A stretch of DNA of 64,000 nt from Acidobacteriota bacterium. Lineage in GTDB: Bacteria > Acidobacteriota > Terriglobia > Terriglobales > Acidobacteriaceae. A program made the translations under genes and the position numbers. The stretch is from positions 1 to 64,000 of the forward strand of contig JAJYSV010000008.1 of assembly GCA_021793405.1 (NCBI GenBank), read 5' to 3'. The stretch's first letter is position 1, and every line of letters begins with the position of its first letter. The notes beneath the pieces were generated by a model, which was not told the origin of the DNA, made no database searches, and was given only the letters and a program-made list of their open reading frames with translations. Below, piece by piece: positions 11,443 to 33,418 of the stretch.

Positions 11443-12086
11443 ATTCCGCCTAGCCCAGGACCGGACTAGCGGTTTTTGCAGTAGACAACGAGGGCGTTTG
11501 TTTCTGATCACTACCTTGGGGCGGTGCTCGCGCCATTGACTCCACTCAGGGCAGGCTACGGTACGGTCAACGGACAGACGAGCCCAAACGTACCGGGAGA
11601 TTACCGGTCCAAACAGACAAGAAAGTACCTTAAAGCGATCCATAGATCCTCTCGTGGAGGTTTCGCTGAGCCATGAACACGCGCGGAAAAGTACCGGTGA
11701 GGATGGATCGAGGCAGTCTGAAAATTGTTTGGTGACTCATAGTACCCTATAAACTGAACAACAGTACCCACAAAAAATGGTTACCAAAGTCCATAACGTA
11801 ACTGTTTAGGCATTAAATATTTTGAAGGGAAGAAGCGAAAGGGGACGGTACCAGAGCGAAATATCGTAGATGTCCGGCCTTCACGGGGCTGAAGGGGAGG
11901 CTCCAGCATCAGAAACGAAGGGGGGACGATGCCAGGTTTGCTGGAGCATTTCTTTTGCCGGCTGCGGCAAGGTGGAGAAGGTGGATGCCAACTATTCGGT
12001 GAATCGGGTATCTTCAGGTTATCTTCAGCCATGATCCATACAAATGAGCTATGTGCTTTCTCGCCACGGTTCATCACAGCCCAACG
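11443..12086. other. 644-base divergent intergenic region (lipoprotein / RND operon)
   Basis: No gene is supported here. It must contain the promoters of the lipoprotein (minus strand) and the efflux operon (plus strand). Visible sites are two AGTACCC copies exactly 22 bases apart (11741 and 11763) and a GGTTACC at 11779-11785, followed by GTAAC near 11797. An AT-rich stretch around 11815 could hold a -10 element. Confidence 0.5.
11741..11801. promoter_or_regulatory. AGTACCC direct repeats and GGTTACC motif
   Basis: AGTACCC occurs at 11741-11747 and 11763-11769, a spacing of 22 bases (two helical turns), which suits a regulator binding the same DNA face twice. GGTTACC follows at 11779-11785 and GTAAC near 11797-11801. 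The target gene and regulator are not identified. Confidence 0.35.
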
Positions 12087-14875: not shown

Positions 14876-14881
14876 AAGTCG

Positions 14882-17800
14882 ATGGCGGATATTCCTTCGA
14901 AGGCGCCCGATCCAGAGCAGCGACCGGAGACGGACGCGCAAAGTGGCGTGCAGCCCCAGCGCGAAATAAACCCGCGTGCGGTGGGCGATGAAGAGAAGCC
15001 TGCCTGGTTCGTCACCTATTCAAAGGCTGTGATCTCGGTGATTGTCGCGTTGTCGCTGGGGGGAGCGATCATGGCATTGAGCATTCCCATCGCTGTATTT
15101 CCCACGACAAATTTTCCGCGGGTGCTGATTGCTATCGACAACGGTGTGATGCCGATCGATCAGATGCTGGTCACGATTACGCGTCCCATTGAAGAAGCCG
15201 TGAACAGCGTGCAGGGATTGCAGACGGTACGGTCGATCACCAGCCGTGGCACGGCGGAAGTAGACCTGTTTTTCGACTGGAAAGTCGACATGTTCCAGAC
15301 GTTGCAGCGGGTGAATTCTGCAATGGCTGCAGTTCAAACCTCGCTGCCACCCACGGCGAGAATTGAAGCGACGCGCCTGCGCTTCTCCAGCTTTCCTATT
15401 CTTGGATTTGGTCTGACGTCCAGTACGATGCCGGCGACCAGGCTGTGGGAAGTGGCGACATACGACATGAAGCCGCGCTTGAACCGCGTGAACGGCGTCG
15501 CTACAGTGCTGGTCCAGGGCGGGGAAGTGCCGGAATTCCACATTATTCCCGATCCGGCAAAACTGCTGCGGACCTCAGTGACGGTGACAGAAATTTTGGA
15601 TGCAGTGCGCAGGACGAACCTGGTCGAATCTCCCGGGCTGATTTCAGAACATCACAACCTGGTGCTGGACCTAGTCGATAGCCAGGTGCATGATCCCAGC
15701 GAAATCGCCAATATCGTCATCAGGAACACCTCTGCGGGTGTGCCTGTTCACATTGGCGATGTTGCCCAGGTGAAAGCTGGCGTCAAGCCTGTTTACACGG
15801 TGGTTACGGCAGACGGCAAACCTGGCGTGCTGCTGAGCATCAATCGTCAGCCGGGAACTAATACGGTGGCGGTGGCGGATGGAGTGTACGCGGAGCTGGC
15901 GCAGATCAGAAAAAATCTTCCGCCCGGAATTGACATCTCTGTGTACTACGACCAGGCGCAGTTGGTGAAAGAAGCCATTGCCAGCGTCCGCGACGCCATC
16001 CTGATCGGCATCGTTCTTTCGTGCATTGTGCTGATCGTTTTTCTGCGGGACTGGGGAAGCTCGCTGGTGGCGGGGATGGTCATTCCGGTGACGATCGCGC
16101 TGACATTCGTCGTGCTGAAGCTGCTGGGACAAACCTTCAATCTGATGACCCTGGGTGGACTGGCGGCCGCTGTAGGCCTGGTGATTGACGACGCCATCGT
16201 GGTGGTGGAGAACGTCGTCCTGCACCGCGATGCGGGTCAGGGAAGAATGCAGGCGGTTCAAAGCGCGCTGAGCGAGCTGAAGGTGCCGCTGGTGGGCTCG
16301 ACGCTGACGCCGGTAGTGATTTTTCTGCCGCTGATTCTCATCGCTGGCGTCACGGGAACTTTCTTCCGCGCGTTGGCGATTACGATGGGCTCCGCCCTGA
16401 TCTCGTCGCTGTTTCTGGCCCTGACGTGGACACCGACGCTGAGTCAATATTTTGTTCGGCGCAAGGACACGGTGCGACCATCGGATCGGATCGGCACGTT
16501 CGCTTCGCATGAGGATGAAACTCGACGGATGATGGAAGCCGAAGAGGCCAGCATCAGCGGTTTCATGAAGCGAATTATTGGTGCCTATGAGCGACTGCTG
16601 ACAGTTGTTCTGGCGCGACCGTTGTGGCTGGCCGTTTTCGCCGTGGTATTGATTGTGATTTCTTACTTCTCGTATTCCTCCCTCGGTTCCGATCTGTTGC
16701 CGAAAATGGATGAAGGCGCTTTTACGGTGGACTACATTATGCCGCCCGGAAGCTCTTTGGCGGAGACAGACCGTGTGGTCGGCCACGTCGTCCAGATCAT
16801 TCGCTCCATCCCGGAGGTGAAGGCAACTTCGCGCCGTACGGGACTGCAACTGGGTTTGGCCGCAGTAACAGAAGCAAACACCGGGGATATTTCGGTGAAC
16901 CTGAAAAGTCATCGCAGCCGCGATATATACGCCATCATGGACGAGGTGCAGGATAAGGTCAGTCGAGCGGAACCGGCGCTGGATATCGACCTGCATCAGA
17001 CGCTGGAGGACATGATCGGCGATCTGACGAATGCGCCGCAGCCAGTCGACATCAAGTTGTTCAGCGAAGATCCGAATCTGCTGCGACATTGGGCACCGAT
17101 CGTCGCCGATAAAATCTCGAATGTTCCGGGAGTGGTGGGAGTATTGAACGGAATCGATGACACCATCAGCAGTCCGGAGACGGTGTATCACATTCAACCG
17201 TCCGTGACCGCGACCAGCGGGTTCACTCCAGAAGAGGTGGCGACGAATGCAACTGCGTTGCTGCAGGGCGAGACGGCACCAACGCCATTGGTGGTGAACA
17301 ATCGCGCGTATAACATCCGTGTTCGCTTTCCGGAGCAGAATCGCGCTTCGCCGCAAGCGATGGACAACACAATATTGGTCAGCTCCGCGGGAACGACAGC
17401 GACACTGGGTGCGCTGGCGACGGTGCAAAATCTTCCTGGGCAGACAGAGATTCTGCGCGAGAACCTGCAACGGCTGGTAGAGGTTTCCGCGCGCCTGCAG
17501 GGGACAAGCTTGGGGCAGGCGATTGTCGGCGTAAAAAAAGCGGTGGCGTCGCTGAACCTGCCACCGCAGATTCGAGTGGAATATGGCGGGACGTACGCGA
17601 CACAGCAGCAGTCCTTTCACGACTTGCTGATGGTGCTGTTTGCGGGGCTGCTACTGGTATTTCTGGTGCTGCTGTTTGAGTTCCGATCCTTTTCCGCTCC
17701 GGTGTCCATTCTGGCGTCGGCGGTACTGTCTACATCGGGAGTGTTTCTCGCGCTGATGATTACCGGAACCGACTTCAACATTTCCTCTTTCATGGGATTG

Positions 17801-18106
17801 ATCATGGTGGTGGGCATTGTTGCGAAGAATGGAATTTTGCTGCTGGATGCTGATGTGAAATTTCGCGCGCTGGGCATGTCTCCGAAGGATGCCATGATCC
17901 AGGCGGGTCGCAGGCGGTTGCGGCCGATCATGATGACAGCGGTCGCCGCGGTAGCGGGAATGTTCCCGCTAGCCCTGGCCCTGGGCGCCGGGTCGCAGAT
18001 GCTGCAGCCGTTGGCGATCGCTGTGATCGGCGGCATTCTCATTTCCATGGTGCTGTCGCTGGTCATCACTCCAGCGGTGCACTATTACATGACCGGAAAG
18101 GGCTAG
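14882..18106 (+). CDS. RND-family efflux pump (AcrB/CusA-like permease)
   Basis: A 1,074-residue inner-membrane proton-drug or proton-metal antiporter. Length, the duplicated 6-helix plus large periplasmic loop layout, and the TM4 sequence GLVIDDAIVVVENV with the paired proton-relay aspartates identify the family. The N-terminal helix is followed by PTTNFPRVLIAIDNG, similar to the FPxxxxP-x-V-x-V region of AcrB and CusA types. The second half ends in FMGLIMVVGIVAKNGILLLD. It cannot be sorted confidently between hydrophobic-compound and heavy-metal pumps: no methionine-rich or metal-site motif stands out. No dedicated regulator adjoins the operon. Confidence 0.92.
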   Translation: MADIPSKAPDPEQRPETDAQSGVQPQREINPRAVGDEEKPAWFVTYSKAVISVIVALSLGGAIMALSIPIAVFPTTNFPRVLIAIDNGVMPIDQMLVTITRPIEEAVNSVQGLQTVRSITSRGTAEVDLFFDWKVDMFQTLQRVNSAMAAVQTSLPPTARIEATRLRFSSFPILGFGLTSSTMPATRLWEVATYDMKPRLNRVNGVATVLVQGGEVPEFHIIPDPAKLLRTSVTVTEILDAVRRTNLVESPGLISEHHNLVLDLVDSQVHDPSEIANIVIRNTSAGVPVHIGDVAQVKAGVKPVYTVVTADGKPGVLLSINRQPGTNTVAVADGVYAELAQIRKNLPPGIDISVYYDQAQLVKEAIASVRDAILIGIVLSCIVLIVFLRDWGSSLVAGMVIPVTIALTFVVLKLLGQTFNLMTLGGLAAAVGLVIDDAIVVVENVVLHRDAGQGRMQAVQSALSELKVPLVGSTLTPVVIFLPLILIAGVTGTFFRALAITMGSALISSLFLALTWTPTLSQYFVRRKDTVRPSDRIGTFASHEDETRRMMEAEEASISGFMKRIIGAYERLLTVVLARPLWLAVFAVVLIVISYFSYSSLGSDLLPKMDEGAFTVDYIMPPGSSLAETDRVVGHVVQIIRSIPEVKATSRRTGLQLGLAAVTEANTGDISVNLKSHRSRDIYAIMDEVQDKVSRAEPALDIDLHQTLEDMIGDLTNAPQPVDIKLFSEDPNLLRHWAPIVADKISNVPGVVGVLNGIDDTISSPETVYHIQPSVTATSGFTPEEVATNATALLQGETAPTPLVVNNRAYNIRVRFPEQNRASPQAMDNTILVSSAGTTATLGALATVQNLPGQTEILRENLQRLVEVSARLQGTSLGQAIVGVKKAVASLNLPPQIRVEYGGTYATQQQSFHDLLMVLFAGLLLVFLVLLFEFRSFSAPVSILASAVLSTSGVFLALMITGTDFNISSFMGLIMVVGIVAKNGILLLDADVKFRALGMSPKDAMIQAGRRRLRPIMMTAVAAVAGMFPLALALGAGSQMLQPLAIAVIGGILISMVLSLVITPAVHYYMTGKG

Positions 18107-18382: not shown

Positions 18383-19402
18383 CTAACATCCCTTTTGCAG
18401 CACGGACGAATTGCGAACCACCAAAGTAGGAGCGATGCGAATATTTTGCGTAGTGCATCCTCCCTCGCGGATCAATTGCAGCGCTAAGTTTCCGACCCGC
18501 TCACCAAGTACGCTGGTCGACTGGTCGATTGAGGTGAGGGGGATACGCAGGTAGTCCGAATACCTCACATTGCCACAGCCTACAAAAGCAATGTCCTCTG
18601 GTACGGAAAGCCCCGCCTCCAGTGTCGACTGTATCGCTCCTATGGCAATTAAATCGTTGTAGCAAAAGACCGCGTCGGGTCGCCGGTTTAGCCGAAGTAA
18701 TTTAGACATCTCGTGATGGCCCGCGGCTTCGCCAGTTTCTTCCACACGAGGGCTCATAAGGACGTAAGATTCATCTCGTTGAATGCCGCTTTGCGCGAGA
18801 GCAGTACTATATCCGAGAAGGCGGTCGTACCCGGGCGAGAGTTCTGGGCCCCCAATGTAGGCAATCTTCTGCTTTCCTATGGCAATCAAATGCTGGGTTG
18901 CTATCAGTCCCGCCTGGAAGTCATCGGTACCAACGAAGTTCGCCCGCAAGTGCGGAAAATTGCGATCCACCAGGATGAAAGGAGTTTTCTGGTTTTCAAC
19001 ACCATAGAAACCCTGCAGAGTCGGCTGGCAAGATGCTATCAACATGGCATCGACTCCACGGGCAAGCATCGTACGTATTTCACTTTGCTCAACTAACGGA
19101 TTGTCCTCCGATGACGTGAGTATGAGGCCGTAATGATTCTGCCGGAGGATGCCACTCAGGGATTTCGCGAATTCCGCAAAGAAGGGGTGCAGCAGGTCCG
19201 GCACAACAAGCCCGATAGTAAAGGACTTTCCGCTGGCCAGACCTCTTGCAAGCATATTGGGCTGATAGTTCAACTCTGCCATTTTTTTTAATACACGCTG
19301 CCGTGTTTTTTCGCTGATGTCGTCGGCTTCACGCAAAACCTTCGAGACAGTGACAGTCGAAACTCCCAAATCTCTCGCGATATCTTTCAGGCGAATCGCC
19401 AT
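18383..19402 (-). CDS. LacI-family transcriptional regulator
   Basis: A 339-residue protein. The ATG at 19402 has AAGGA eight bases upstream; a TTG two codons earlier is possible. The N-terminal helix-turn-helix (RLKDIARDLGVSTVTVSKVL) and the hinge region with NYQPNMLARGLASGKS are classical LacI features. The periplasmic-binding-protein-like sensor domain follows (IGLVVPDLLHPFF, AFVGCGNVRYSDY, LTSIDQS). It is transcribed away from the M20-TonB-PIG-L-APC-PfkB-GH4 gene series and probably represses it until a sugar-like ligand binds. The ligand cannot be read from sequence. Confidence 0.92.
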   Translation of the reverse strand: MAIRLKDIARDLGVSTVTVSKVLREADDISEKTRQRVLKKMAELNYQPNMLARGLASGKSFTIGLVVPDLLHPFFAEFAKSLSGILRQNHYGLILTSSEDNPLVEQSEIRTMLARGVDAMLIASCQPTLQGFYGVENQKTPFILVDRNFPHLRANFVGTDDFQAGLIATQHLIAIGKQKIAYIGGPELSPGYDRLLGYSTALAQSGIQRDESYVLMSPRVEETGEAAGHHEMSKLLRLNRRPDAVFCYNDLIAIGAIQSTLEAGLSVPEDIAFVGCGNVRYSDYLRIPLTSIDQSTSVLGERVGNLALQLIREGGCTTQNIRIAPTLVVRNSSVLQKGC

Positions 19403-19590
19403 AGTCAAAATCCTTTATGAACCTCGTATTTGAAGCAACACTCATTATGTATCTACTCGATAGCTTGTTTCTTTCGTTCACAAAAAATTATCCAAGCAAT
19501 CGACGATAGCAAATACTCGATTTTGGGGCACTACGGTACACTATCTTTCCCGGACAGGCGGGCACGGGCAATACCATTCGAGGTGCTTCG
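19403..19590. promoter_or_regulatory. Divergent LacI / M20-hydrolase promoter region
   Basis: 188 AT-rich bases separate the two divergent genes. An AATCGA...TCGATT inverted pair (about 19498-19521) is a weak operator candidate. A clear -35/-10 pair cannot be assigned. Confidence 0.35.
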
Positions 19591-21048
19591 GTGCGCAAGC
19601 AGTATCGCTACTGTTATCTCATTTTGCATCTTTTTCTGGCTACGGCGGTGTGCCGCGCCCAAACGACTCAAACATCCCCAACTGCCGAATTGCTAGAACA
19701 GTTGATTCGCATCAATACCAGCAATCCTCCCGGCAACGAAGTTCAGGTTGACAGGTTTTTGGCAGCGAAATTGAAACCACTGGGCTTCGAGACGGAGATT
19801 ATTCCGACTCCTGAAGCCGGCAAAGCTCATTTTCTTGCTCGCCTGAAAGGGAATGGATCCAAGAAGCCAATTCTGCTGGCAGCTCATGCGGACGTTGTAG
19901 GGGTGGAGCGGTCACAGTGGAGCGTGGATCCTTTTGCGGGCATCGAGAAAGATGGGTATGTATATGGACGCGGCGCTCTCGATAATAAAGGATCACTGGC
20001 AGTTTTTACAGAGGCTTTAATAGAGCTTGCGAAAAATAAAGTTCCGCTGGACCGTGACATCATCCTACTTTCAGAAGCGGATGAAGAAAGCGGAAAGTAC
20101 AACACGGAGTGGCTGGCAGAACATTATTTCGACAAGATCGACTGTGCCGCTTCCTTGAATGAAGGCGGCTGGATCATGGAAAACCCACGAGGCGCCGTGC
20201 AATATGTGAGCATCTCCACCGCGGACAAGCTGTCGGTGTGGCTGACGCTGACCTCGCACGGGACCTCAACGCATTCCTCAATGCCTGTACCCAATGATGC
20301 GATCTTTACTCTGGCGCAGGCACTTGCGAAACTTTCCAATTATGGAACCAGGTTGCAGTTCACGCCTGGCTCCCGGCAGTTTTTGCTGACGCTTTCCGAG
20401 ACGAGCCCGGAGCCGATGTCGAAGACCTACTCTGACCTGGTGCAGAACTCAGATCCAGCACAGGTTGTGGCTGCGGACAAGACCGTTAGCAAAAATCCGC
20501 TACTCCATGCCATACTGCATAACACTATTGCGCCTGTTTTTTTGAATGCTGGTTTTCGCCGCAATGTCATCCCGGGCACGGCTCAAGCGATGATCAACAT
20601 GCGGCTTATTCCTGGAAGCAAAATCGACGACGTGATCCGTGAAATTCAGACCGTGGTCGATAATCCACGCGTGGATGTCAAACTCTCCGATGGCGCAGGC
20701 CTTTCGAGCGCGTCATCTATGATTTCGGGCGACGAGAAACTGCGGGCTCACATCCGGGCGCTGAGTGAAATCCAGCAGTCTCCGACGGATACAGCCCTAT
20801 ATAAAGCGCTCGCTTCACAAGCGGAGGCTGAATTCCATGCGCCCGTCACACCTTACCTGTTTCAGGCGGGAACAGATGCTTTCGCGTGGCGCAAGCGCGG
20901 CATTCCGGTCTATGGGATATATCCCTACCCTGTCAGTTCCTCGGACATTCAACGTATGCACGGCAATGATGAACGAATCAGTGTGCGCTCCCTGGATCAG
21001 GGAACCGTCATGATCTACAAAGTATTGATTCAAGTCGCCGCCCAGTAA
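19591..21048 (+). CDS. Secreted M20-family metallo-hydrolase (carboxypeptidase/deacylase)
   Basis: 485 residues with a GTG start and a signal peptide (YLILHLFLATAVCRAQ). The di-zinc M20/ArgE/DapE architecture is intact. HAD sits at residues 99-101, the bridging Asp131 in GRGALDNKG, the catalytic/metal Glu pair in EADEESG (about 162-168), and a late His in RMHGNDE near the C-terminus. A lid/dimerisation domain (SISTADKLSVWLTLTSHGTSTHSS) lies in the middle. M20 enzymes cleave peptide or N-acyl amide bonds. With a signal peptide it should act in the periplasm. It opens the putative amide-glycoside catabolic operon facing the LacI gene. Confidence 0.88.
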   Translation: MRKQYRYCYLILHLFLATAVCRAQTTQTSPTAELLEQLIRINTSNPPGNEVQVDRFLAAKLKPLGFETEIIPTPEAGKAHFLARLKGNGSKKPILLAAHADVVGVERSQWSVDPFAGIEKDGYVYGRGALDNKGSLAVFTEALIELAKNKVPLDRDIILLSEADEESGKYNTEWLAEHYFDKIDCAASLNEGGWIMENPRGAVQYVSISTADKLSVWLTLTSHGTSTHSSMPVPNDAIFTLAQALAKLSNYGTRLQFTPGSRQFLLTLSETSPEPMSKTYSDLVQNSDPAQVVAADKTVSKNPLLHAILHNTIAPVFLNAGFRRNVIPGTAQAMINMRLIPGSKIDDVIREIQTVVDNPRVDVKLSDGAGLSSASSMISGDEKLRAHIRALSEIQQSPTDTALYKALASQAEAEFHAPVTPYLFQAGTDAFAWRKRGIPVYGIYPYPVSSSDIQRMHGNDERISVRSLDQGTVMIYKVLIQVAAQ

Positions 21049-21476
21049 CAAGAAACCCAAAATGTCGTTTTGGACTGCGCCGCGTAGAGGAATGCCACTA
21101 TCGTGCCCATAGTGTAGTGAGGTGAGCGCATTTGTTCCATTCTGTTCGGCGACCGATGGCTGAAGGTGGTCCAGTCCTCGCATCGCGAGCACGCTTGATT
21201 TTCGTCATCGATAACGCAAAGATCCTGCCTCGGCAAAATGTGCAATTTAAAAAGATTAAAGTTTAATAAGTTGTATATATATCAGATAGCTACAGAAAAT
21301 AGTTTAGATGGAAGGATTGAACGCTGCAATTTTTTTATTGTATGTGCGATATCGATTATGTTACACACGTACCTCTAGGAGATGTAGCCAAAACAATCGA
21401 GAATCGACAAGAAGATTTGCGCAAAACACAGCCGGTTAACTCAGCAAGCAACCATGTGATTTAGGGGGGGAATGAC
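21049..21476. other. 428-base intergenic region before the TonB receptor
   Basis: No gene is supported. The second half (about 21240-21400) is strikingly AT-rich and probably contains the promoter of the receptor gene. It ends in a strong ribosome-binding site (AGGGGGGG at about 21463-21470). The receptor may therefore have its own promoter in addition to read-through from the M20 gene. Confidence 0.5.
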
Positions 21477-24400
21477 ATGCGGATGAAGATGCTTGGATTT
21501 GGTTATTTTTTTCGGTGCAAACAACTCAGTTTCACGTTTTGCGCATTTCTTACCTTGGCGACGGTCTGCCGCCCAGCATTCGCTCAAACCAACACCGGTT
21601 CGATCGTGGGCACCGTACGCGATCCCAGTGGCGCGGTTATTTCGGGCGCTCATGTAGACGTCACCAATAATGCGACCAATGTGACCATGTCGTTCGTGAC
21701 AAACGCCGCCGGCCAGTACCAGGCATTGCAACTCATTCCGGGCGTCTATAGCGTTAAAGGGACGAATCCGGGCTATTCCGTCGAGGTGCGGCCGAACATC
21801 ACCGTCAACGTGCAGTCCAGAGTTCAAGTAGACTTTGCTCTTGCCATAGGCAAGGTGCAGCAGCAAGTTCAGGTCACCGCAAATTCCCAAATCCTCCAGA
21901 CACAGTCCGCAGCCGTGACGGGAGTGCTGACTAGCCATGCGATCAACGATCTTCCTCTCAATGGCCGCGACTACGATCAGCTCGTACTTCTCCAGCCCGG
22001 TGTATTTCACGATCCCAACGTTTCAGTGGCCAATCCGGCCGAGGGACGATTCAGCTCCAATGGAAATCTGGAACTGCAGAATTACTTCGAGTTGGATGGC
22101 ATCGACAACAATTCTGGATCGGAGAACCTGCAGGAACAATCGACGCAAGCGGTGATCCCGCCTCCGGACGCGCTGCAGGAATTCGTGATCCAGACCAGGA
22201 CCTATTCCACGGAGTTCGGTACCTCCGCTGGAGCAGTGGTCAATGCTTCCACCAAGTCGGGGACGAATCAGTTCCATGGAGACGCATGGGATTACATCCA
22301 GAACAGCGCACTTGATGCCAACACCTGGTTCAACAATTATGGTGGGTTGCCGAAAGGTCACTTCAGCCAGAACCAGTTTGGGGGAACGGTCGGCGGCCCG
22401 ATCATCCGCAATCGTACGTTCTTTTTCGTCTCGTTTGAGACTCTGCTGAGCAGCCAGGCCGAGACGGTGACTACAACGGTGCCCACGCCGGACATGAAAA
22501 AGGGCGATTTCCGCGCTGTGGCCTCGATCCATCCCATGACAGCCTTGGCCAGTAACCAAGTTGGCTGTATTACCAACAATGTGGTCTCGCCGAGTTGTAT
22601 CGATCCGGTGGGCCAAGCCATCATGAACCTGTATCCGGATCCCAGCCCGCAGCTCTCTCCCGGCGGCAACATCAACGCGTTTAACGGGAGTGCAAACTAC
22701 CAGTTTGTGACTGCAGTTCCGAACGACACAAAGACGTTCGATGTGCGCATCGATCACACTCTCAACAAAATAAACCAGATCTTTGGCCGCTATGCCTTTG
22801 ACCGCTCCAACTATCAGTCGCCCATGTGGACTGCCAATCCCATCGCCGGGAACGGCAATTTTTCCACGCAGTACATTCTCCACGATCAATCCCTGGCTTT
22901 AGGGTGGACGTACACTCCATCATCTTCGCTGGTCAACACGGCCCATTTCGGTTTTCTCCGGGATTTTTCGCATAGCGATCCCGTAGACCTTCCCCTTGGG
23001 GTTTCGGATGCTCCGAAGTTCGGTCTGACGGGCATTCCGGTCACGCCGGAGACCGCCGGAATCCCTCCTAACTACATCTTCGGTTTTCAGACCATCGGCT
23101 CATCGATTTACCGGCCTCAGTTTCAGGTGGCGCAGGTATATCAGTTTGTCGATGACCTGTATAAGCTGATCGGAAATCACAGTCTGCAGTTCGGCTATGA
23201 ATATCACGAAAACTCCCTGAATTTCTTCGATCTTGAGGCCCCGCAGGGCGTGATCCTTACCAGCGGCATTTACAGCAATACACAGGGATTCGGCGCCGCG
23301 GACTATCTTATGGGAGATGTGTTCGAAGCGATCTATGAAACTGCCCTCAGAGTGAATAACTATATCCGGGGCAATTCACTGTATGGGCAAGATACATGGC
23401 GTGTCAATCCCAAGCTCACGGTCAACTATGGCGTTCGCTATGAGTTGTATCCTCCGTTTTGGTTGGAACGCGACAACCGGACGTCGAACTTCAGTCCGGC
23501 CAATGGGGGAGAGATCGTCACCGCAACAGGCAACAACGGCATCTATGGCCGCACGCTGATCCATCCCGACAATCTGAATTTTGCGCCCCGCATCGGCTTC
23601 GCATATCACGCCGCTCGGCCTTTGGTCATACGTGGGGGATACGGTATCTTTCATCAGTTCATCAACAGAATCGGGTCGGAATCGATGCTGCAGCTCAACC
23701 CACCCCAGTTGCTCGACGTTTCTCTCGCTCAGTCCCTGGGCAGCACCACCCCGGTTTTCCAACTCAAGAATGGATTCCCCGTCCAGAAGCTGATAAACGA
23801 AGGCATAGTTCTCCCCAATCTGCAAATCCGGGCGCAGGATCCGAATGAACGCACCACCTATGTGGAGCAGGTGAGCTTCGGACCGCAAGTACAGCTCAGC
23901 AACAATACTGTTCTGAACCTTACCTATGTTGGGAACTGGGGACGCAAGGAAAACCGTCTGCGGAATGCCAACCAAGGCCGACTCACTGGCTTCAGCGGCA
24001 CGTCGCCGCTCATTACCTTTCCATATGCCAACCTGAATACTCAGGGGGTCACCACTCCTGCATTGAAAGGCGCGGGCCAGCACTCTTTCCTGGAACTCGC
24101 GACGAATGATGGCAACACCGATTACAACGCACTGGAAGTCGATCTCCAGCGCCAGCTCAGCCATCGGTTGATGTATCAGATCAGCTACACCTGGTCGCAT
24201 AACATGGCGGATTATGTGGACAACCTGACGGGAGGCTCAACTCCGCAAAATGCCTATGACTATGCTCATGAAATGAGTAACTCGCCGCAGGACGTTCGGC
24301 ATCGATTTGTGGGCAGCGGCACCTGGCTGTTGCCCATTGGTGAGGGCGGTTGGGTGATGAACAACAACAGTAAGGCTGCCCAATTCCTCGGTAACTGGCA

Positions 24401-24860
24401 AGTAAATGCAATTGTTTCTTTACAAACCGGCGTACCGTTTACCGTAACTGCTCCGGATCAGAGCTTTTCAGGTCCGAACCATGCCTCCTATCCGAACTGC
24501 GTGGGAGATCCCTATGCCGGAACCTCCACGAATCCAAAGGAATATGCCGGCAGCAAGGCTCCCGGCGCCTTCCTGAACGTGAATGCCTTCGCTTTGCCGG
24601 CGCCGGGAACTTTTGGCACCTGCCGTCCACGCGCATTCCACGGCCCTGGACTGAACGAGTCGGATCTGAGTCTATTCAAGAGCTTTCCACTGGGAGGTGC
24701 GCGTCGATTTGAATTTCGGGCGGAATTCTTCAACGCATTCAATCACCCCAGCTTCCAGAATCCCTCCGCCAACATCTCCATTCCAGGTGCGTTTGGCAAG
24801 AGCACGGGTACGACAACCAACCCCCGCGAAATTCAGTTTGCCGGGAAGTTCTTCTTCTAG
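21477..24860 (+). CDS. TonB-dependent receptor with N-terminal carboxypeptidase-regulatory-like domain (Oar-type)
   Basis: A 1,127-residue outer-membrane transporter. The signal peptide ends at RPAFAQ. A CarboxypepD_reg-like beta sandwich follows (GSIVGTVRDPSGAVISGA, about residues 40-125). The plug domain then contains INDLPLNGRDYDQLVLLQPGV, a hallmark of acidobacterial and Oar-type receptors. The remainder alternates short turns and aromatic-rich strands of a 22-strand barrel and ends in KFFF, a typical C-terminal aromatic signature. Its place in the LacI locus suggests it imports the sugar-containing substrate. A strong terminator hairpin follows directly. Confidence 0.9.
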   Translation: MRMKMLGFGYFFRCKQLSFTFCAFLTLATVCRPAFAQTNTGSIVGTVRDPSGAVISGAHVDVTNNATNVTMSFVTNAAGQYQALQLIPGVYSVKGTNPGYSVEVRPNITVNVQSRVQVDFALAIGKVQQQVQVTANSQILQTQSAAVTGVLTSHAINDLPLNGRDYDQLVLLQPGVFHDPNVSVANPAEGRFSSNGNLELQNYFELDGIDNNSGSENLQEQSTQAVIPPPDALQEFVIQTRTYSTEFGTSAGAVVNASTKSGTNQFHGDAWDYIQNSALDANTWFNNYGGLPKGHFSQNQFGGTVGGPIIRNRTFFFVSFETLLSSQAETVTTTVPTPDMKKGDFRAVASIHPMTALASNQVGCITNNVVSPSCIDPVGQAIMNLYPDPSPQLSPGGNINAFNGSANYQFVTAVPNDTKTFDVRIDHTLNKINQIFGRYAFDRSNYQSPMWTANPIAGNGNFSTQYILHDQSLALGWTYTPSSSLVNTAHFGFLRDFSHSDPVDLPLGVSDAPKFGLTGIPVTPETAGIPPNYIFGFQTIGSSIYRPQFQVAQVYQFVDDLYKLIGNHSLQFGYEYHENSLNFFDLEAPQGVILTSGIYSNTQGFGAADYLMGDVFEAIYETALRVNNYIRGNSLYGQDTWRVNPKLTVNYGVRYELYPPFWLERDNRTSNFSPANGGEIVTATGNNGIYGRTLIHPDNLNFAPRIGFAYHAARPLVIRGGYGIFHQFINRIGSESMLQLNPPQLLDVSLAQSLGSTTPVFQLKNGFPVQKLINEGIVLPNLQIRAQDPNERTTYVEQVSFGPQVQLSNNTVLNLTYVGNWGRKENRLRNANQGRLTGFSGTSPLITFPYANLNTQGVTTPALKGAGQHSFLELATNDGNTDYNALEVDLQRQLSHRLMYQISYTWSHNMADYVDNLTGGSTPQNAYDYAHEMSNSPQDVRHRFVGSGTWLLPIGEGGWVMNNNSKAAQFLGNWQVNAIVSLQTGVPFTVTAPDQSFSGPNHASYPNCVGDPYAGTSTNPKEYAGSKAPGAFLNVNAFALPAPGTFGTCRPRAFHGPGLNESDLSLFKSFPLGGARRFEFRAEFFNAFNHPSFQNPSANISIPGAFGKSTGTTTNPREIQFAGKFFF

Positions 24861-24861
24861 C

Positions 24862-24908
24862 ATTCAGCGGCACGATTCGGTAATTGTGCCGCTGAATTTT
24901 ATCTTTTT
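24862..24908 (+). terminator. Rho-independent terminator after the TonB receptor gene
   Basis: A perfect 12-bp GC-rich stem (ATTCAGCGGCAC / GTGCCGCTGAAT) with a 12-base loop is followed by TTTATCTTTTTG. It lies between the receptor stop and the PIG-L gene, so it may lower expression of the downstream enzymes relative to the receptor. Confidence 0.8.
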
Positions 24909-24936
24909 GATTATCCACTCGCCTTAGGAGAAACCT

Positions 24937-27810
24937 ATGAAGGCTCGCGCATTTTCTTTCCCCGTGATGGCTGGGACGCTGGCGCTAGTGCAAATGGTTG
25001 TCCCTCTGCAGGGTGCAAGCGCCCAGACCCCGCGTCAAGTGAAGGTCAATTCGCGCCAGGACGCGTTTGCGATTCCAGCGGACCGAGGTGCGGCCGCACT
25101 GTGGCAGAGCCTCATGAAGCTCCATACCCGTGCCAGCATGCTAATGATTACCGCGCATCCGGACGATGAGGATGGACCCACGTTGGCCTATGAATCCCGC
25201 GGGTTGGGGGCGCGAGTGGCGTTGTTGACACTGAATCGGGGAGAAGGCGGAGCCAATGAGATGTCTTCCGACCTATGGGACGCGCTCGGTTTAGTGCGGA
25301 CGGAGGAACTCCTCCAGGCGGATCGTTATTATGGCGTCCAGCAGTACTTCTCCACGGTTGCCGATTACGGCTTTTCGAAGAGCCTGGCGGAGGCAACGCA
25401 AAAGTGGACGCAGGAACGGCTCCTTTACAACGTAGTGCGAGTCGTGCGGATCACGCGACCGCTGGTGATCACTTCTGTCTTTGTGGGCGGACCTTCTGAC
25501 GGCCATGGCAACCACCAGGCTGCTGGAATGATGGCGCAGGAGGTCTTCAAGGCTGCGGGGAACCCGAATGTTTTCCCCGATCAGATCAAAGCCGGTCTTC
25601 GTCCCTGGAACCCGATGAAGGGGTACGCCCGCGTCCCATTTTTTCTGGAAAAGGGAAGCGTTTCTCCCAAGGGTTTGTACGACTACGCCGACCATCGTTG
25701 GTATCCGGCTGGAGTGAAAAACTACATTACAGGTAAGTGGGAGCCGGGCGCCGTTTCCGCAGATGTGTCTGTCCCGGTTGGCGAAGATAGCAACATCGTT
25801 GGCTTAAGTTATGAACAAATCGCCCGAGAAGGACTCGGTTTTCAGAAGTCGCAAAATGGAGGCGTGGGGATTCCCGATGCCGGCCCCGATTTCTCCGCAT
25901 ATCATCGCTTTGGTTCCCTCATTCCAGTGACTGGACCGGAGAAATCGTTTTATAGCGGCATCGATGTCTCCTTGTTGGGCATCGCGAGCCTTGCCGAAGG
26001 TCAGGAACATGGGTTTTTGACGCAGGGGCTGACCCAGATCAATCAGTTGGTTGAGCAGGCGATGAACAATTTTTCAGCCACCCATCCCAGCGGTATATCC
26101 GACACCCTGGCGAAAGGACTCAGCGCAACCAATACGCTGATACAAAAGGTGAATGACAGCACGCTGTCCGATTCCGCGAAATACGACGTCTTGCACGAAT
26201 TGCGCATTAAGCAAGCGCAATTCAATGACGCCCTCTGTCAGGCGCTGGGTGTATCGATTGCGTCCAATATAGCGCCTGAACACCCACCCACTGGGATGTT
26301 TGCCCGCTTTTTCAGGATGCAGCCGAGTTTCCAGATGGCAATTCCTGGACAGCAGTTTTCGGTGAGAGTCCATCTGGCAGATGGTGGCGGTCTCCCAGTA
26401 CAGATAAAAAATGTTTCGTTGGAAACTGTCCAAACCTCCAAGTGGAATGCAGCGATTGACAAGCCTGTAGCGGGCACCCTGGATGCCGGCCAGGCTATTG
26501 ACGCACATTTTCACGTAAGCGTTCCGGAGGATGCCAGTTATACTCAGCCATATTTTCAACGTCCGGATATTGAGCAGCCATATTATGATGTGCTCGATAA
26601 GAAGTACCTGAACTTGCCACTCGCACCTTATCCGCTGGATGCCTGGGTCACGCTTGAATTCCAAGGCGTGGAATTGCATTTAGGAGAGGTGGTGCAGACT
26701 GTGAAACGGGAAGTTGGTCCAGGTCTCGTTCAGTATCCCATGCCTGTCGGTCCTGCCATTTCGCTCACAATGAACCAGACGGCTGGAATTGTGCCTCTCA
26801 ATAAGAGCTCATTTACCATCAACGCGCTGGTGCATAGCAACGTCAAGGGACCTGCTAAGGGAACAGTCAGTCTGGATTTGCCGACAGGCTGGCGGTCTGA
26901 GCCTGCCACAGCCAATTTCTCCACGGCGCAGGAAGGCGATCAGCAGTCCGTGGCATTTACCGTCTATCCGCACAGTGTGGAAGAAAAGAGCTATACGCTT
27001 ACTGCGATAGCAAACTACGATGGTCGTCCCTACAAACAGGGATATACGACGGTCGGGTACGCGGGGCTGCGCCCATATTTTCTATATCGTCCATCGACGT
27101 ATACGACGACTGGCACGAACGTCGAAGTTGAACCCGGCCTGACGGTAGGCTATATCGAGGGCAGCGGGGATGATGTCCCGCAGTCACTGGAAAATCTGGG
27201 CATCCATGTCCAGTTCATCACCAAGGACGGTCTTGCAACGGGAGATCTTCAGAAATACAAAGTGATTCTGGTCGGCGTGCGCGCCTATGCAGTGCGAGAT
27301 GACCTACGTACCTACAATGGAAGAATTATGAATTATGTGAAAGACGGCGGGGTGGTAGTCGTTCAATACCAGACTCCGGAGTTCGATCACAATTACGGGC
27401 CGTATCCTTATACGATGACCTCGGATCCGGAAGAGGTTACCGATGAAAGCTCTTTTGTCAAGATCCTCCAGCCGACGAATCCCGTGCTTTCATGGCCGAA
27501 TAAGATTACTGAAAAAGACTTTCAAGGATGGATTGAAGAGCGCGGTTCGAAATTCATGAAATCCTGGGACCCTCATTACCAAGCGCTGCTCGAGACTCAT
27601 GATCCTGATCAGGCCCCACAGGAAGGCGGCATGCTATACGCAAAGTACGGGAAAGGCATCTATGTCTACACAGCGTACGCCTTTTATCGTGAATTACCTC
27701 TCGGAGTGCCCGGGGCCTATCGACTCTTCGCCAATCTCTTGAGTCTGCCGCATAGCCTCGGTAGCATACAGGCTCTCAACCATGCGACAGGGACGGGCAA
27801 CACCAATTGA
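24937..27810 (+). CDS. Secreted PIG-L (LmbE-like) deacetylase, multidomain
   Basis: 957 residues with a signal peptide (cleavage near GASAQ) and a good AGGAG ribosome-binding site. The zinc-dependent N-deacetylase domain occupies about residues 60-330 with the AHPDDE motif at 73-78 and a DGHGNHQ segment supplying the later metal His. Family members remove acetyl or similar acyl groups from GlcNAc-type amino sugars. The middle (about 450-720) is made of beta-sandwich domains. Residues about 735-945 resemble a ThuA/GATase-like alpha/beta fold (ENLGIHVQFI, YKVILVGVRAY, VKDGGVVVVQYQ). It lies between the receptor and a permease, fitting periplasmic deacylation of the imported substrate. Confidence 0.88.
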   Translation: MKARAFSFPVMAGTLALVQMVVPLQGASAQTPRQVKVNSRQDAFAIPADRGAAALWQSLMKLHTRASMLMITAHPDDEDGPTLAYESRGLGARVALLTLNRGEGGANEMSSDLWDALGLVRTEELLQADRYYGVQQYFSTVADYGFSKSLAEATQKWTQERLLYNVVRVVRITRPLVITSVFVGGPSDGHGNHQAAGMMAQEVFKAAGNPNVFPDQIKAGLRPWNPMKGYARVPFFLEKGSVSPKGLYDYADHRWYPAGVKNYITGKWEPGAVSADVSVPVGEDSNIVGLSYEQIAREGLGFQKSQNGGVGIPDAGPDFSAYHRFGSLIPVTGPEKSFYSGIDVSLLGIASLAEGQEHGFLTQGLTQINQLVEQAMNNFSATHPSGISDTLAKGLSATNTLIQKVNDSTLSDSAKYDVLHELRIKQAQFNDALCQALGVSIASNIAPEHPPTGMFARFFRMQPSFQMAIPGQQFSVRVHLADGGGLPVQIKNVSLETVQTSKWNAAIDKPVAGTLDAGQAIDAHFHVSVPEDASYTQPYFQRPDIEQPYYDVLDKKYLNLPLAPYPLDAWVTLEFQGVELHLGEVVQTVKREVGPGLVQYPMPVGPAISLTMNQTAGIVPLNKSSFTINALVHSNVKGPAKGTVSLDLPTGWRSEPATANFSTAQEGDQQSVAFTVYPHSVEEKSYTLTAIANYDGRPYKQGYTTVGYAGLRPYFLYRPSTYTTTGTNVEVEPGLTVGYIEGSGDDVPQSLENLGIHVQFITKDGLATGDLQKYKVILVGVRAYAVRDDLRTYNGRIMNYVKDGGVVVVQYQTPEFDHNYGPYPYTMTSDPEEVTDESSFVKILQPTNPVLSWPNKITEKDFQGWIEERGSKFMKSWDPHYQALLETHDPDQAPQEGGMLYAKYGKGIYVYTAYAFYRELPLGVPGAYRLFANLLSLPHSLGSIQALNHATGTGNTN

Positions 27811-27858
27811 CACAGAGCCCGCCAGATCGAAGTAGCGTCCGAAAAACAAGAATACGTA

Positions 27859-29220
27859 TTGCCGAGGCCCCGTTTGGAGGAAAATAATCCGCATCTCATC
27901 CGCGGCATCGGCCTAGGTGGTGCAGTTTCTGCCAATATTCTGAATATGGTGGGAATCGGCCCATTTCTCACCATTCCGATAGCATTAGCTGCCATGGGTG
28001 GCCCCCAGGCAATCCTGGGTTGGATCCTCGGAGCATTCATTTCCGTTTGCGATGGCATGGTGTGGGCGGAGTTAGGATCTGCCATGCCAGTTTCCGGTGG
28101 CCCGTACTACTACCTCCTGGAGATATTCGGTCCACGAAGTTTTGGCAGATTGATTAGTTTTATCTTTCTTGGGCAAGCCTTGATCATTGGCCCACTGTCC
28201 GCTGCGTCCGGTGCGGTTGGCTTTGCAGAGTACAGTCGATACCTTGTTCCGTGGCTTTCCCACTCGGATATGATCGGGTTGGCTGTGCTGGTGGTTCTTG
28301 CGAATACCGCGCTAGTCTATCGTAATATTCGGTCGATTGGGCTGATATCTATGCTGATCACGGTAGTTGTGATCGGCACCAGCTTATGGATCATCTTTTC
28401 TGGAGTTACACATTTCCATGCAGCGACCGCATTTAGCTTCCCCGCCGGCGCGTTCCGTCTATCTCGGGGTTTCTTTGTGGGGCTTGGCGCCGCAACGCTG
28501 ATCGCTCTCTACGACTACGGAGGTTACTATAACGTCTGTCTGTTTGGTGAAGAGGTGCGTGATCCTACTAAGACAATCCCCAGGGCGATTCTTCTGTCGA
28601 TTGCCTGTGTGGCATTTCTCTATCTCGCCATGAATATTTCAATTCTCGGAGTTTTGCCGTGGCAGCGTGGTATCCAGTCGCATGCAATTGTTGCTGATTT
28701 TATGGAGTTGATCTATGGCCCGCTGGGTGGTAAAGCTGTATCGTGGCTAATTTTGGTCGCCAGCTTTGCATCTGTGTTTGCCATTCTTCTTGGTTACTCG
28801 CGAATTCCTTACGCTGCGGCGGTGGATGGAAGATTTTTTGCTCCCTTTGCAAAGTTGCATTCTACAGGAAAATTTCCCTATGTTTCCGTGCTTGCCATGG
28901 GCTTGCTTTCTGCCCTGGCTTGTGTGTTTAGTTTGGCTGCTCTTATTACCGTTTTAATTATTGTTCAGACGATGGTTCAGTTCATAGGGCAGTGTATTGC
29001 GGTCATGGTTTTGCGGCAGCGCGCGGGCAAGAAGTTTCAGTCTTACAAGATGCCGCTCTACCCAGTTCCAGCGCTGATTGCGCTTGCGGGTTGGGTGTAT
29101 ATCGTAGTCACAAGCGAGTGGAAATATATTGGGCTTAGCCTTATTCTGATTACTTTTGGAATAGCGGTTTATATGGTTCGTGCATATCGCGCCGCAGAAT
29201 GGCCGTTTGGTGCAGTATGA
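27859..29220 (+). CDS. APC-superfamily permease
   Basis: 453 residues from a TTG start; no ATG or GTG is available before the first helix. About 12 transmembrane helices can be counted. The first helix region (GLGGAVSANILNMVGIGPFL) has the unwound G-x-G-x-x-x-x-x-x-x-G-x-G pattern of amino acid/polyamine/organocation transporters, and a F-G-E-E-V-R-D-P segment (about 232-239) matches the conserved loop of the family. It overlaps the PfkB gene by four bases (ATGA). In this operon it is the only inner-membrane transporter, so it should carry the processed substrate, possibly an amino-sugar or aminoacyl glycoside. The substrate is inferred. Confidence 0.85.
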   Translation: MPRPRLEENNPHLIRGIGLGGAVSANILNMVGIGPFLTIPIALAAMGGPQAILGWILGAFISVCDGMVWAELGSAMPVSGGPYYYLLEIFGPRSFGRLISFIFLGQALIIGPLSAASGAVGFAEYSRYLVPWLSHSDMIGLAVLVVLANTALVYRNIRSIGLISMLITVVVIGTSLWIIFSGVTHFHAATAFSFPAGAFRLSRGFFVGLGAATLIALYDYGGYYNVCLFGEEVRDPTKTIPRAILLSIACVAFLYLAMNISILGVLPWQRGIQSHAIVADFMELIYGPLGGKAVSWLILVASFASVFAILLGYSRIPYAAAVDGRFFAPFAKLHSTGKFPYVSVLAMGLLSALACVFSLAALITVLIIVQTMVQFIGQCIAVMVLRQRAGKKFQSYKMPLYPVPALIALAGWVYIVVTSEWKYIGLSLILITFGIAVYMVRAYRAAEWPFGAV

Positions 29221-30140
29221 CGAAGAAGTATGAAGTCGCTGTCGTCGGAGAAATTTTCGCCGATCACATTCTCTCGGGATTTAAAGAGTGGCCTGTGCCC
29301 GGTACGGAAATCTTTACAGACAAATACATGCGCGAAATTGGTGGTGGCGCACCGAATACCGCATGCGCCCTGGCAAAACTGGGACGTCGTACACTTTTGT
29401 GTGGCATCGCTGGGGCGGAGGATCAATTGTGGCTGTCTCGACGAATGCAAGGTTTCGGGGTTTTACTCGATGGGATCCGATATGCGAATGAAAGCACGGG
29501 AGTCACAATCAGCATTTCTACACCGGAAGATCGCACCTTTTTTACGTATCGAGGATCCAATTCGCAATTGGACGAATACTTGCAAGATCCGGTATTGATT
29601 CGAAGGCTGTTGGAGGCTTCTCACGTTCATTTCGCGATGCCCTTGACTTATACCACTGCTCGATCGTTGTTACCCCAATTGAAACAGGCAGGCTGTACTC
29701 TTTCTATTGACGTCGGTTGGCAGCCGGAATGGCTTACCAATGTGCACAATCTGGCTATCTGCAAAAGTTACGACTTGTTTCTCCCCAATGAAAAGGAAGC
29801 GGAGATATTTACGGGACTCGAGGGACCAGCCGAGATGCTTCGGGCTTTTATGCAGTCAGGCATTTCAGGGGCCGTGATTAAGCTTGGGCCCAGAGGTGCG
29901 GCAACCATGCTCGATGGAAAGCTGCACCCTGTCGGCTCCATCCATGTGACTCCAGTGGATACGACGGGAGCCGGCGATGCTTTCGATGCCGGACTCATCG
30001 ACGCATTTCTCGATAAGGTTTCTGTGGATGGAATGCTTCGCCGCGCTTGTATCTGCGGTGCATTGTCCACACGCGTCAGTGGAGCGTTGAATGGACTACC
30101 CACACGCAAGGAATTAGACGAGAGTTATGAGAGGAGTTAA
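29217..30140 (+). CDS. PfkB-family sugar or nucleoside kinase
   Basis: A 307-residue protein starting at the ATG that overlaps the permease stop. The N-terminal signature GGGAPNTACALAKLG and the C-terminal ATP/catalytic signature DTTGAGDAFDAGLIDAFL with the catalytic Asp are intact. The family phosphorylates ribose, fructose, nucleosides and related sugars using ATP. Nine bases separate it from the GH4 gene. Because GH4 enzymes usually act on 6-phosphorylated glycosides and no PTS is nearby, this kinase is the likely source of the phosphorylated substrate, or it may phosphorylate the released sugar. Confidence 0.9.
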   Translation: MTKKYEVAVVGEIFADHILSGFKEWPVPGTEIFTDKYMREIGGGAPNTACALAKLGRRTLLCGIAGAEDQLWLSRRMQGFGVLLDGIRYANESTGVTISISTPEDRTFFTYRGSNSQLDEYLQDPVLIRRLLEASHVHFAMPLTYTTARSLLPQLKQAGCTLSIDVGWQPEWLTNVHNLAICKSYDLFLPNEKEAEIFTGLEGPAEMLRAFMQSGISGAVIKLGPRGAATMLDGKLHPVGSIHVTPVDTTGAGDAFDAGLIDAFLDKVSVDGMLRRACICGALSTRVSGALNGLPTRKELDESYERS

Positions 30141-30149
30141 GCAAAAGTT

Positions 30150-31529
30150 ATGAGCAAGCCGGCAAATTGTAAGATAGCTCTGCTGGGTGGAGGAAGTGTG
30201 CGGGCTCCCCTGGTAGTTTTTGGCGTCAACGAGTCAGCCAGGCACTTAGGTGTCGACGAATTCGTCCTGTATGACCCCGACATGGAGCGTGTGCAGATCA
30301 TCGGGGAGCTATGCAAGGCTCTGGTCGAACGGGAAAATGGAAATCTTCGTATTCGAGTTGCTTCGACGGTTGAAGACGCGGTCAGCGATGCCGCTTTTAT
30401 TTTAAGTAGTATTCGCGTCGGTGGTGCTCAGGCGCGCGCCATCGATGAAAAAATTGCCATTCGGCATGGGTATCCAGGACAGGAAACTACCGGACCCGCT
30501 GGTGCAGCGATGGCCTTGCGCACAATTCCAGTTGCGATAGAGCAGGCGCGAATCGTTGAAAAGCTCAGTCCAAGCGGCTGGCTGATTAACTTCACCAATC
30601 CTGCTGGGCTAATTACTCAAGCCATCCTTCATCATACTGGGGCAAAATGTGTGGGCATCTGCGATACCCCTACTGAATTGTTTCATCGGATTGCCCTGGC
30701 GCTGCATGCTCCTCCGCAAGAGGTTCAGTGCGATTACATGGGTCTGAATCATCTGGGGTGGGTATATCGTGTGAGACTCCGCGGTGAGGATGTTATGGAA
30801 CGTATTCTTGCCGACGATGAACTGTTAGATAGCCTATATTCGGCACCGCTGTTCGACCATGAGATGCTCCGTGCTCTCCGGCTTCTTCCCACAGAATACC
30901 TTTTTTTCTACTATGCTCGCCGTCGCGCGTTAGAAAATCAACGCCATGCCGGGACGACTCGCGGAGCCGAAGTCGTGCAGCTCAACGTAGAACTGATGCG
31001 CATCCTTTCTTCTCAGATAGGGTCTGGCGACAGCAGTGCCGCGCTTGGGACCTATGTGGATTACCTGAATCAGCGCTCGGGTTCCTACATGAAGTTGGAG
31101 GGAGTTTCAGTATCTGCTTTTGACATGTCGGACATCCCGTCAGACGATCCTTTCCGGGCTGCTACAGGGTATCATCGTATCGCGCTGGACGTGATGAATG
31201 GCCTGTGCAGCAATGAAGAAGTTCGAGTTGTCGTCAATGTCCGCAACAGTGGTTCGATCGCAGAAATCGCAGCGAACGACGTTGCCGAGGTCCCCTGCGC
31301 GATTGGTGGAAATTCAATCACTCCTGAACAATGCGGGTCGTTGCCAGAAAGCGTGCGCGGCCTTGTCCTCTCAGTGAAAGCATACGAACGAGCTATCATC
31401 GAGGCTGCTGTCACCAAGTCTGCATCTCTAGCCCAAAAGGCTTTGTTGTTGTTACCGACGGTTGGAGAATGGGAACCAAGCGGACGGATAGTATCCGATT
31501 TGATGAAGAGTAAATCGGTCATTCTATAA
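30150..31529 (+). CDS. GH4-family NAD-dependent (phospho)glycosidase
   Basis: 459 residues, normal length for GH4. The N-terminal Rossmann segment [13 protein letters not shown] binds [11 protein letters not shown] (about 146-153), Cys171 in VGICDTP and His201 in GLNHLGW are the metal-ligand positions of the family. They correspond closely to the Cys and His of the 6-phospho-alpha-glucosidase GlvA. GH4 enzymes cleave glycosides by an oxidation-elimination mechanism with NAD and a divalent metal. Substrates include 6-phospho-alpha/beta-glucosides but also some unphosphorylated sugars, so specificity is open. It is the last gene of the LacI-associated series. Confidence 0.9.
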
Positions 31530-33355: not shown

Positions 33356-33418
33356 GGAGCCAGTGTACCAACATTCAGCCGATGCCTGCCGTCTGTAAAA
33401 TGCATCTAAGCGATGAAT

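Follow-up and report, generated by a model that had tools for sequence, protein, structure and literature searches.

Which compound is broken down by a bacterial gene cluster that combines a LacI-family regulator with a TonB-dependent-receptor-like outer-membrane protein (TBDR), a PIG-L/LmbE-type N-deacylase, an APC-superfamily permease, a PfkB-family sugar kinase and a GH4 glycosidase? The cluster occupies positions 18383–31529 of a 64,000-nucleotide stretch (the window) of contig JAJYSV010000008.1 from a member of the Acidobacteriaceae (GCA_021793405.1). A first-pass annotation had outlined a route of outer-membrane entry, periplasmic deacylation, import by the permease, phosphorylation by PfkB and cleavage by GH4 for an N-acyl or aminoacyl amino-sugar glycoside, and had proposed N-acetylglucosamine (GlcNAc)-type conjugates or muropeptides as inducers to be tried. 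The outline fits all of our findings, but it missed the main clue, which is inositol; nothing specific was found in favour of GlcNAc conjugates or muropeptides, and among the neighbours of the cluster no gene for muropeptide use was recognised. Judging by linkage in the genomes and by an operator-like site held in common, the aglycone is probably inositol, and on balance we lean modestly towards a scavenging operon for N-acylated glucosamine (GlcN) glycosidically joined to inositol.

Neighbourhood conservation, the point on which the first-pass annotation had let its grouping stand or fall, is strong. The set of TBDR, PIG-L, APC, PfkB and GH4 genes is found again in other genera at 45–72% identity (50–72% for the TBDR), and its co-occurrence is far above chance. 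GH4 has a scattered distribution: of 200 sampled family genomes, 22 give a match at E<=0.001 (a strong one in 18), and none of the nine other genomes examined from the window organism's genus has the gene. The neighbourhoods of 17 family GH4s fall into two groups. In group 1 (GH4 about 60% identical) the five genes mostly stand in the above order, or with the first two divergent; several of these loci have a LacI 58–59% identical to that of the window, and two, one of them a short contig, show only APC–PfkB–GH4 (the trio). In group 2 (GH4 about 38% identical) PIG-L, APC, PfkB and GH4 are kept as far as the contigs extend.

The same gene set was recovered from further Acidobacteriota families by a phylum-wide search. 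When a genome collection of 84,980 species was scanned, the trio turned up in Acidobacteriota and also in Xanthomonas, Luteibacter, Dyella, Pinirhizobacter, Sphingomonas, Nitrospirillum, Azospirillum and Asticcacaulis; in all of these proteobacteria but Pinirhizobacter and Azospirillum, the three genes by themselves were seen to make up an operon. The kinase and GH4 are adjacent almost always, and most relatives have the complete trio. In a 105-sequence tree, built by a quick method with SH-aLRT support only, the GH4s of these proteobacteria form one clade nested among the acidobacterial ones, a placement that we read as lateral transfer from Acidobacteriota.

What links these loci to inositol? 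Among the group-2 neighbours are myo-inositol oxygenase (MIOX) and IolD-like, IolB/KduI, IolE-like and IolG-like proteins, and MIOX or iolB/D/E/A is close to GH4 at some ten separate points of the GH4 tree, as read by eye. MIOX stands between PfkB and GH4 in three loci (L084, L193 and L199; L numbers denote loci and G numbers genomes, G000 being that of the window) and directly before GH4 in L178. In L143 and L175, GH4 is followed directly on its 3' side by a LacI 58% identical to the window LacI and then by IolB–IolD–IolE–IolG, while an IolA-like aldehyde dehydrogenase comes after GH4 in L085–L087, L186 and L194. The trio likewise has iol genes next to it in Nitrospirillum, Azospirillum, Asticcacaulis and Sphingomonas. 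Weak IolD/IolA matches (28–30% identity) in L089, L093 and L152 were set aside as likely paralogues.

The association extends to whole genomes. With MIOX scored by PF05153 and IolD by a match above the TIGR04377 cut-off (the IolD of G076 being split across contigs), one or the other is present in 17 of 18 GH4-positive family genomes and in 10 of 20 GH4-negative ones, namely four of 13 from other genera and six of seven congeners. Fisher tests that take no account of relatedness give p=0.0003 against the 13 other-genus genomes and p=0.004 for the pooled set. MIOX and true IolD appear to be mutually exclusive among the 18 positive genomes (L025–L041), with neither in G124. The window itself contains no iol or MIOX gene; its genome lacks MIOX but carries an iol operon that looks complete (G000:C103), together with a second, divergent APC–PIG-L pair (43% and 54% identical; L242, G000:C104:5130-9530). 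An APC–PIG-L pair adjoins MIOX with no GH4 in G070 (L120) and in the congener G186 (L243), an arrangement that links these two families to inositol independently of GH4.

LacI proteins 56–61% identical to that of the window (18383–19408, minus strand; Pfam LacI and Peripla_BP) lie beside MIOX or iolBDEG in L030/L032/L138/L201, L119, L143/L175, L213 and L234. Between the window's M20 and TBDR genes, at 21202–21217 (no strand assigned), is a 16-bp imperfect palindrome, TCGTCATCGATAACGC, an operator-like site whose position is conserved in relatives. Its core, CGTNANCGNTNACG, was derived by palindrome inspection of a few regions. The core precedes the TBDR in most group-1 loci, lies between MIOX and LacI in L030, L032, L138 and L201, and is found upstream of iolB in L143/L175 and of MIOX in the Sphingomonas locus L213. 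It also occurs 26 bp before the MIOX of G035 (L123), on a different contig from the GH4 of that genome. A whole-genome scan of G378 for the core singled out a contig on which an independent search for MIOX then also gave a match, beside a LacI 61% identical to that of the window; in both G378 and G034 the site sits between MIOX and TBDR.

Several observations weigh against an inositol conjugate. The iol operon of the window genome is unlinked to the locus and has no core match within one mismatch. The core is not enriched by number, with six occurrences in G000 against 11 in the backward control and no enrichment in the window either, and the operator count was therefore rejected as standalone evidence; the weight of the operator-like site lies in its repeated position, not in its count. 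In some relatives the core also precedes unrelated TBDRs, so several LacI paralogues may share the predicted operator. The Fisher tests ignore relatedness, six of the seven GH4-negative congeners also have MIOX or IolD, and G124 carries the trio with neither gene. Most proteobacterial trio loci lack a nearby PIG-L, and neither IolD nor MIOX is present in any of the five Xanthomonas, one Dyella and one Luteibacter genomes checked, all of which carry the trio.

In the Xanthomonas genome examined in detail, which likewise counts against inositol, the trio stands among GH35, GH92, GH125 and other N-glycan-type genes. An insert in the Xanthomonas nix N-glycan cluster has been listed as yhfM-rbk-celF, with no role assigned (PMC5700972). 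It has the trio order and families of the window, with GH4 about 57% identical, but differs in its GH35/GH92/GH125 neighbours and in lacking PIG-L and inositol genes. Either inositol is discarded in Xanthomonas or the substrate there is a different one.

How is the locus itself arranged? All seven genes of the first-pass annotation are present, with ORF check and Pfam agreeing for each, but not as the one unit it had described. The minus-strand LacI gene is followed on the plus strand by an M20-family amidohydrolase/peptidase, putatively secreted (19591–21048; Peptidase_M20 3.7e-26), and then by TBDR (21477–24860; OMP_b-brl_4 1.2e-222, CarboxypepD_reg), PIG-L, APC (27859–29220; AA_permease_2 1.2e-29), PfkB and GH4. 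From TBDR to GH4 the genes are separated by gaps of 76 and 48 bp, a 22-bp overlap and a 9-bp gap, a spacing that makes these five operon-like. We prefer the division into LacI, M20 and a five-gene operon because a 428-bp gap containing the palindrome splits M20 from TBDR. The M20 gene had been counted with the others but is accessory, not core: it is present in the window and in only three of 114 scanned loci, the group-2 cases L033, L035 and L037, where it is 55% identical and adjoins PfkB–GH4.

The deacylase (24937–27810, plus strand; PIG-L 4e-14, with an NPCBM_assoc domain) has a signal-peptide-like N-terminus, as does M20 (both judged by eye), and is putatively secreted. Its zinc ligands H74, D77 and H193 are invariant, and the H74-P-D-D77-E motif and distal His are kept, across 12 proteins. 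MshB is the GlcNAc-inositol deacetylase of mycothiol metabolism. In profile comparisons the best PDB match is LnmX (1e-15) and the best match with a known function is MshB (3e-9), followed by BshB (6e-4) and diacetylchitobiose deacetylases (1e-3). The best NCBIfam matches are Mca (37.8 of 277 bits) and MshB (25.5 of 224 bits), both far under the curated cut-offs. The likeness to MshB and Mca takes in the LmbE/PIG-L fold, as judged by sequence; the zinc ligands, general base, R68, D95 and H144 of MshB align with invariant residues, and Y142 and D146 do not (residue roles from PMC4101496; numbering counted here). In contrast to MshB and Mca, the window protein is putatively secreted and multidomain, has about 950 residues and stands in a catabolic context.

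GH4 enzymes act by an NAD+ and metal dependent C3-oxidation/elimination. The window enzyme (30150–31529, plus strand; Glyco_hydro_4 3.7e-43, 4C 9.9e-41) scores 147.7 and 140.5 bits against cut-offs of 23.2 and 24.1, and its metal site is intact, as the first-pass annotation had said: C171 and H201 do not vary among 11 aligned relatives, and neither do D172 and R89. The closest solved structures are 6-phospho-beta-glucosidases (1s6y, 8e-61), and the RVGG...R..DE stretch of 6-phospho-glycosidases is retained, which suits a phospho-glycosidase-like enzyme. However, CDTP replaces the CNVP (C-N-x-P) of characterised phospho-enzymes, and does so in 110 of 112 relatives; one may speculate that its Asp serves a C2 ammonium. 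The kinase (29199–30140, plus strand; PfkB 1.8e-35) is closest in solved structure to ribokinase and YdjH, with a weak likeness to IolC.

What pathway would such a gene set support? The substrate would contain GlcNAc-inositol or N-acyl-GlcN-inositol, units such as occur in mycothiol and in the head groups of glyco-inositol lipids, and the reactions, phosphorylation site and inducer that we infer from the genes are as follows. The conjugate would enter via the TBDR, and the secreted PIG-L would strip the N-acyl group to leave GlcN-inositol; any N-acyl amino acid set free in this step may be cleaved further by M20. The APC permease would import the amine-bearing pseudo-disaccharide. With PfkB standing in for a phosphotransferase system (PTS), this would then be phosphorylated, probably on C6 of GlcN. 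GH4 would then yield GlcN-6-phosphate and inositol, and the inositol would go on to MIOX or the Iol pathway; the window genome has an iol operon outside the locus. LacI would repress the operon until substrate or product arrives.

Is a pathway of this kind already known? In the ChbG/ChbF system, the GH4 enzyme ChbF cleaves the de-N-acetylated 6-phosphate (PMC9402603). The chb operon (ChbBCA-R-F-G) may serve as an analogue, in which an amino-sugar glycoside first has its amine freed by a deacetylase and is then cleaved by GH4. In contrast to the window, its deacetylase ChbG is cytoplasmic and YdjC-type and not a secreted PIG-L, a PTS stands in place of APC and PfkB, and ChbR in place of LacI; inositol genes are linked to window-type loci. 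The proposed route would follow a Chb-like logic with another transporter and aglycone, and would belong to a known type, deacetylase plus GH4 phospho-glycosidase catabolism, with new features. Inositol catabolism by iol operons or MIOX is fused with or adjacent to the trio in many relatives; the known iol operons serve the uptake of free inositol, whereas the window locus would import and cleave a conjugate. The first-pass annotation knew of no described pathway with its exact set, and we found none: our searches of open-access full texts brought up nothing relevant on bacterial mycothiol or GlcN-inositol catabolism, on GH4 with inositol or on the acidobacterial gene set. The APC–PfkB–GH4 part, however, had already been listed in Xanthomonas (PMC5700972).

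Where would an inositol conjugate come from? The core of glycosylphosphatidylinositol (GPI) anchors is Man3-GlcN-inositol. Head groups of GPI or of plant and fungal glycosyl inositol phosphorylceramides (GIPCs) might be trimmed by phospholipase C and exo-mannosidases/galactosidases to GlcN(Ac)-inositol, then imported and split. The GPI core matches the combination of GH92, GH125 and GlcN-inositol, and a region in Sphingomonas and Nitrospirillum unites the trio, iol genes, GH92 and GH125 alpha-mannosidases, GH2 and phospholipase C. A ceramidase-like gene follows GH4 in L193/L199, and GH125 occurs in seven of nine group-1 GH4-positive genomes against one of 20 GH4-negative ones. Such neighbours and counts favour GPI anchors or GIPCs, but mannosidases are absent from the window locus and GH125 from its genome; furthermore, the glucosamine of GPI has already lost its N-acetyl group, which would leave only GlcNAc-bearing GIPCs in need of PIG-L. 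This source, taken by itself, is rather doubtful. Mycothiol or its conjugates (N-acetylcysteine-GlcN-inositol, AcCys-GlcN-inositol) from soil actinobacteria would give each gene a step, with PIG-L as the amidase, M20 deacylating N-acetylcysteine and the trio handling GlcN-inositol. The presence of M20 here and in three group-2 loci, a PIG-L nearest to Mca and then MshB (weakly, far below cut-off) and the lack of GH125 favour mycothiol for this window. However, most related loci have no M20, and the mannosidase, galactosidase and phospholipase C neighbours found elsewhere misfit mycothiol, which leaves this source fairly unlikely.

Could the aglycone be something other than inositol? The Xanthomonas trio, in the nix N-glycan cluster and without inositol genes, keeps alive an inositol-free amino-sugar disaccharide, such as the chitobiose core of N-glycans or a chitin fragment, with the inositol genes as neighbours by shared ecology. 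A PNGase A-like gene adjoins GH4 in L029/L203, GH130 is found in four loci, and ChbF, itself a GH4, acts on deacetylated chitobiose-6-phosphate. We nonetheless consider a disaccharide unlikely: MIOX within the operon, recurrent adjoining iol operons and the shared operator-like site are hard to explain without inositol, and diacetylchitobiose deacetylases fit the PIG-L profile less well than MshB does. A shade less likely still is an inositol conjugate that GH4 takes unphosphorylated, the kinase acting after cleavage or on inositol; the resemblance of PfkB to ribokinases and YdjH, and weakly to IolC, would suit this order of events, as would CDTP, while the closeness of GH4 to 6-phospho-glycosidases, with their conserved stretch, and its near-constant adjacency to the kinase argue against it.

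An Amadori or glycosyl-amino-acid pathway is highly improbable. The Frl operon (FrlA-B-D) shares PTS-free import and phosphorylation by an APC permease and a PfkB kinase; APC matches the FrlA model (8.5e-17) and PfkB the fructoselysine 6-kinase model (2.9e-11), and the Xanthomonas permease was annotated yhfM, an older name of frlA. These matches are weak, however, at 61 of 800 bits for FrlA and 43 of 247 for FrlD, far below curated cut-offs, and other models score higher. The window has GH4 where Frl has FrlB, and PIG-L and TBDR besides; the window genes scanned included none recognisable as an FrlB-type deglycase, and the inositol linkage would be left unexplained.

Other genes surround the locus and its relatives. 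Upstream, at 12051–18106, is an apparent RND-type (resistance-nodulation-division) efflux operon, with a PF02321 outer-membrane efflux protein followed by 447-aa and 1074-aa ORFs, the larger resembling an RND pump by eye. Two secreted-looking proteins without a Pfam match (8647–9825 and 10330–11643, minus strand) have similar C-termini; a long linker of Gly-Thr-Ser repeats is present in the second. Some 1.9 kb past GH4, downstream, a zinc-dependent phospholipase C-like protein (33413–34762; PF00882, 1.6e-14) was considered as a GPI-lipase partner and dropped; it is probably unrelated to the cluster, since no fetched related locus has a homologue. Among those loci, an extra PfkB, about 34% identical to the window PfkB, lies just upstream of the TBDR in L030–L032, L127, L137, L138 and L201, in several cases with a LacI of its own. 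A family of about 490 residues without a Pfam match occurs near the trio in L085, L086, L186 and L194 and in L147, L156 and L202; it spans acidobacterial and sphingomonad loci and is a candidate for a missing pathway part. In the group-2 loci L034, L035, L037 and L039, creatininase-family and TPR proteins lie between PIG-L and APC, and the creatininase-family enzyme might cleave another amide.

What would a pathway for N-acylated glucosaminyl-inositol mean? Eukaryotic cells display amino-sugar–inositol conjugates on their surfaces as GPI anchors; abundant sphingolipids of plants and fungi contain them too, and so does the mycothiol of actinobacteria. It is possible, though somewhat short of an even chance, that the locus represents the first bacterial pathway for glucosaminyl-inositol glycans (GPI anchors, GIPCs or mycothiol), with a PTS-free APC–PfkB–GH4 cassette whose GH4 would have a new specificity, for GlcN-6-phosphate-inositol; this cassette would have passed from Acidobacteriota to Pseudomonadota and would supply MIOX or Iol enzymes with inositol. 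If so, a cassette of two phyla would gain a substrate class and a function, the unassigned insert of the Xanthomonas N-glycan cluster would gain a role, and an inositol-releasing specificity would be added to GH4.

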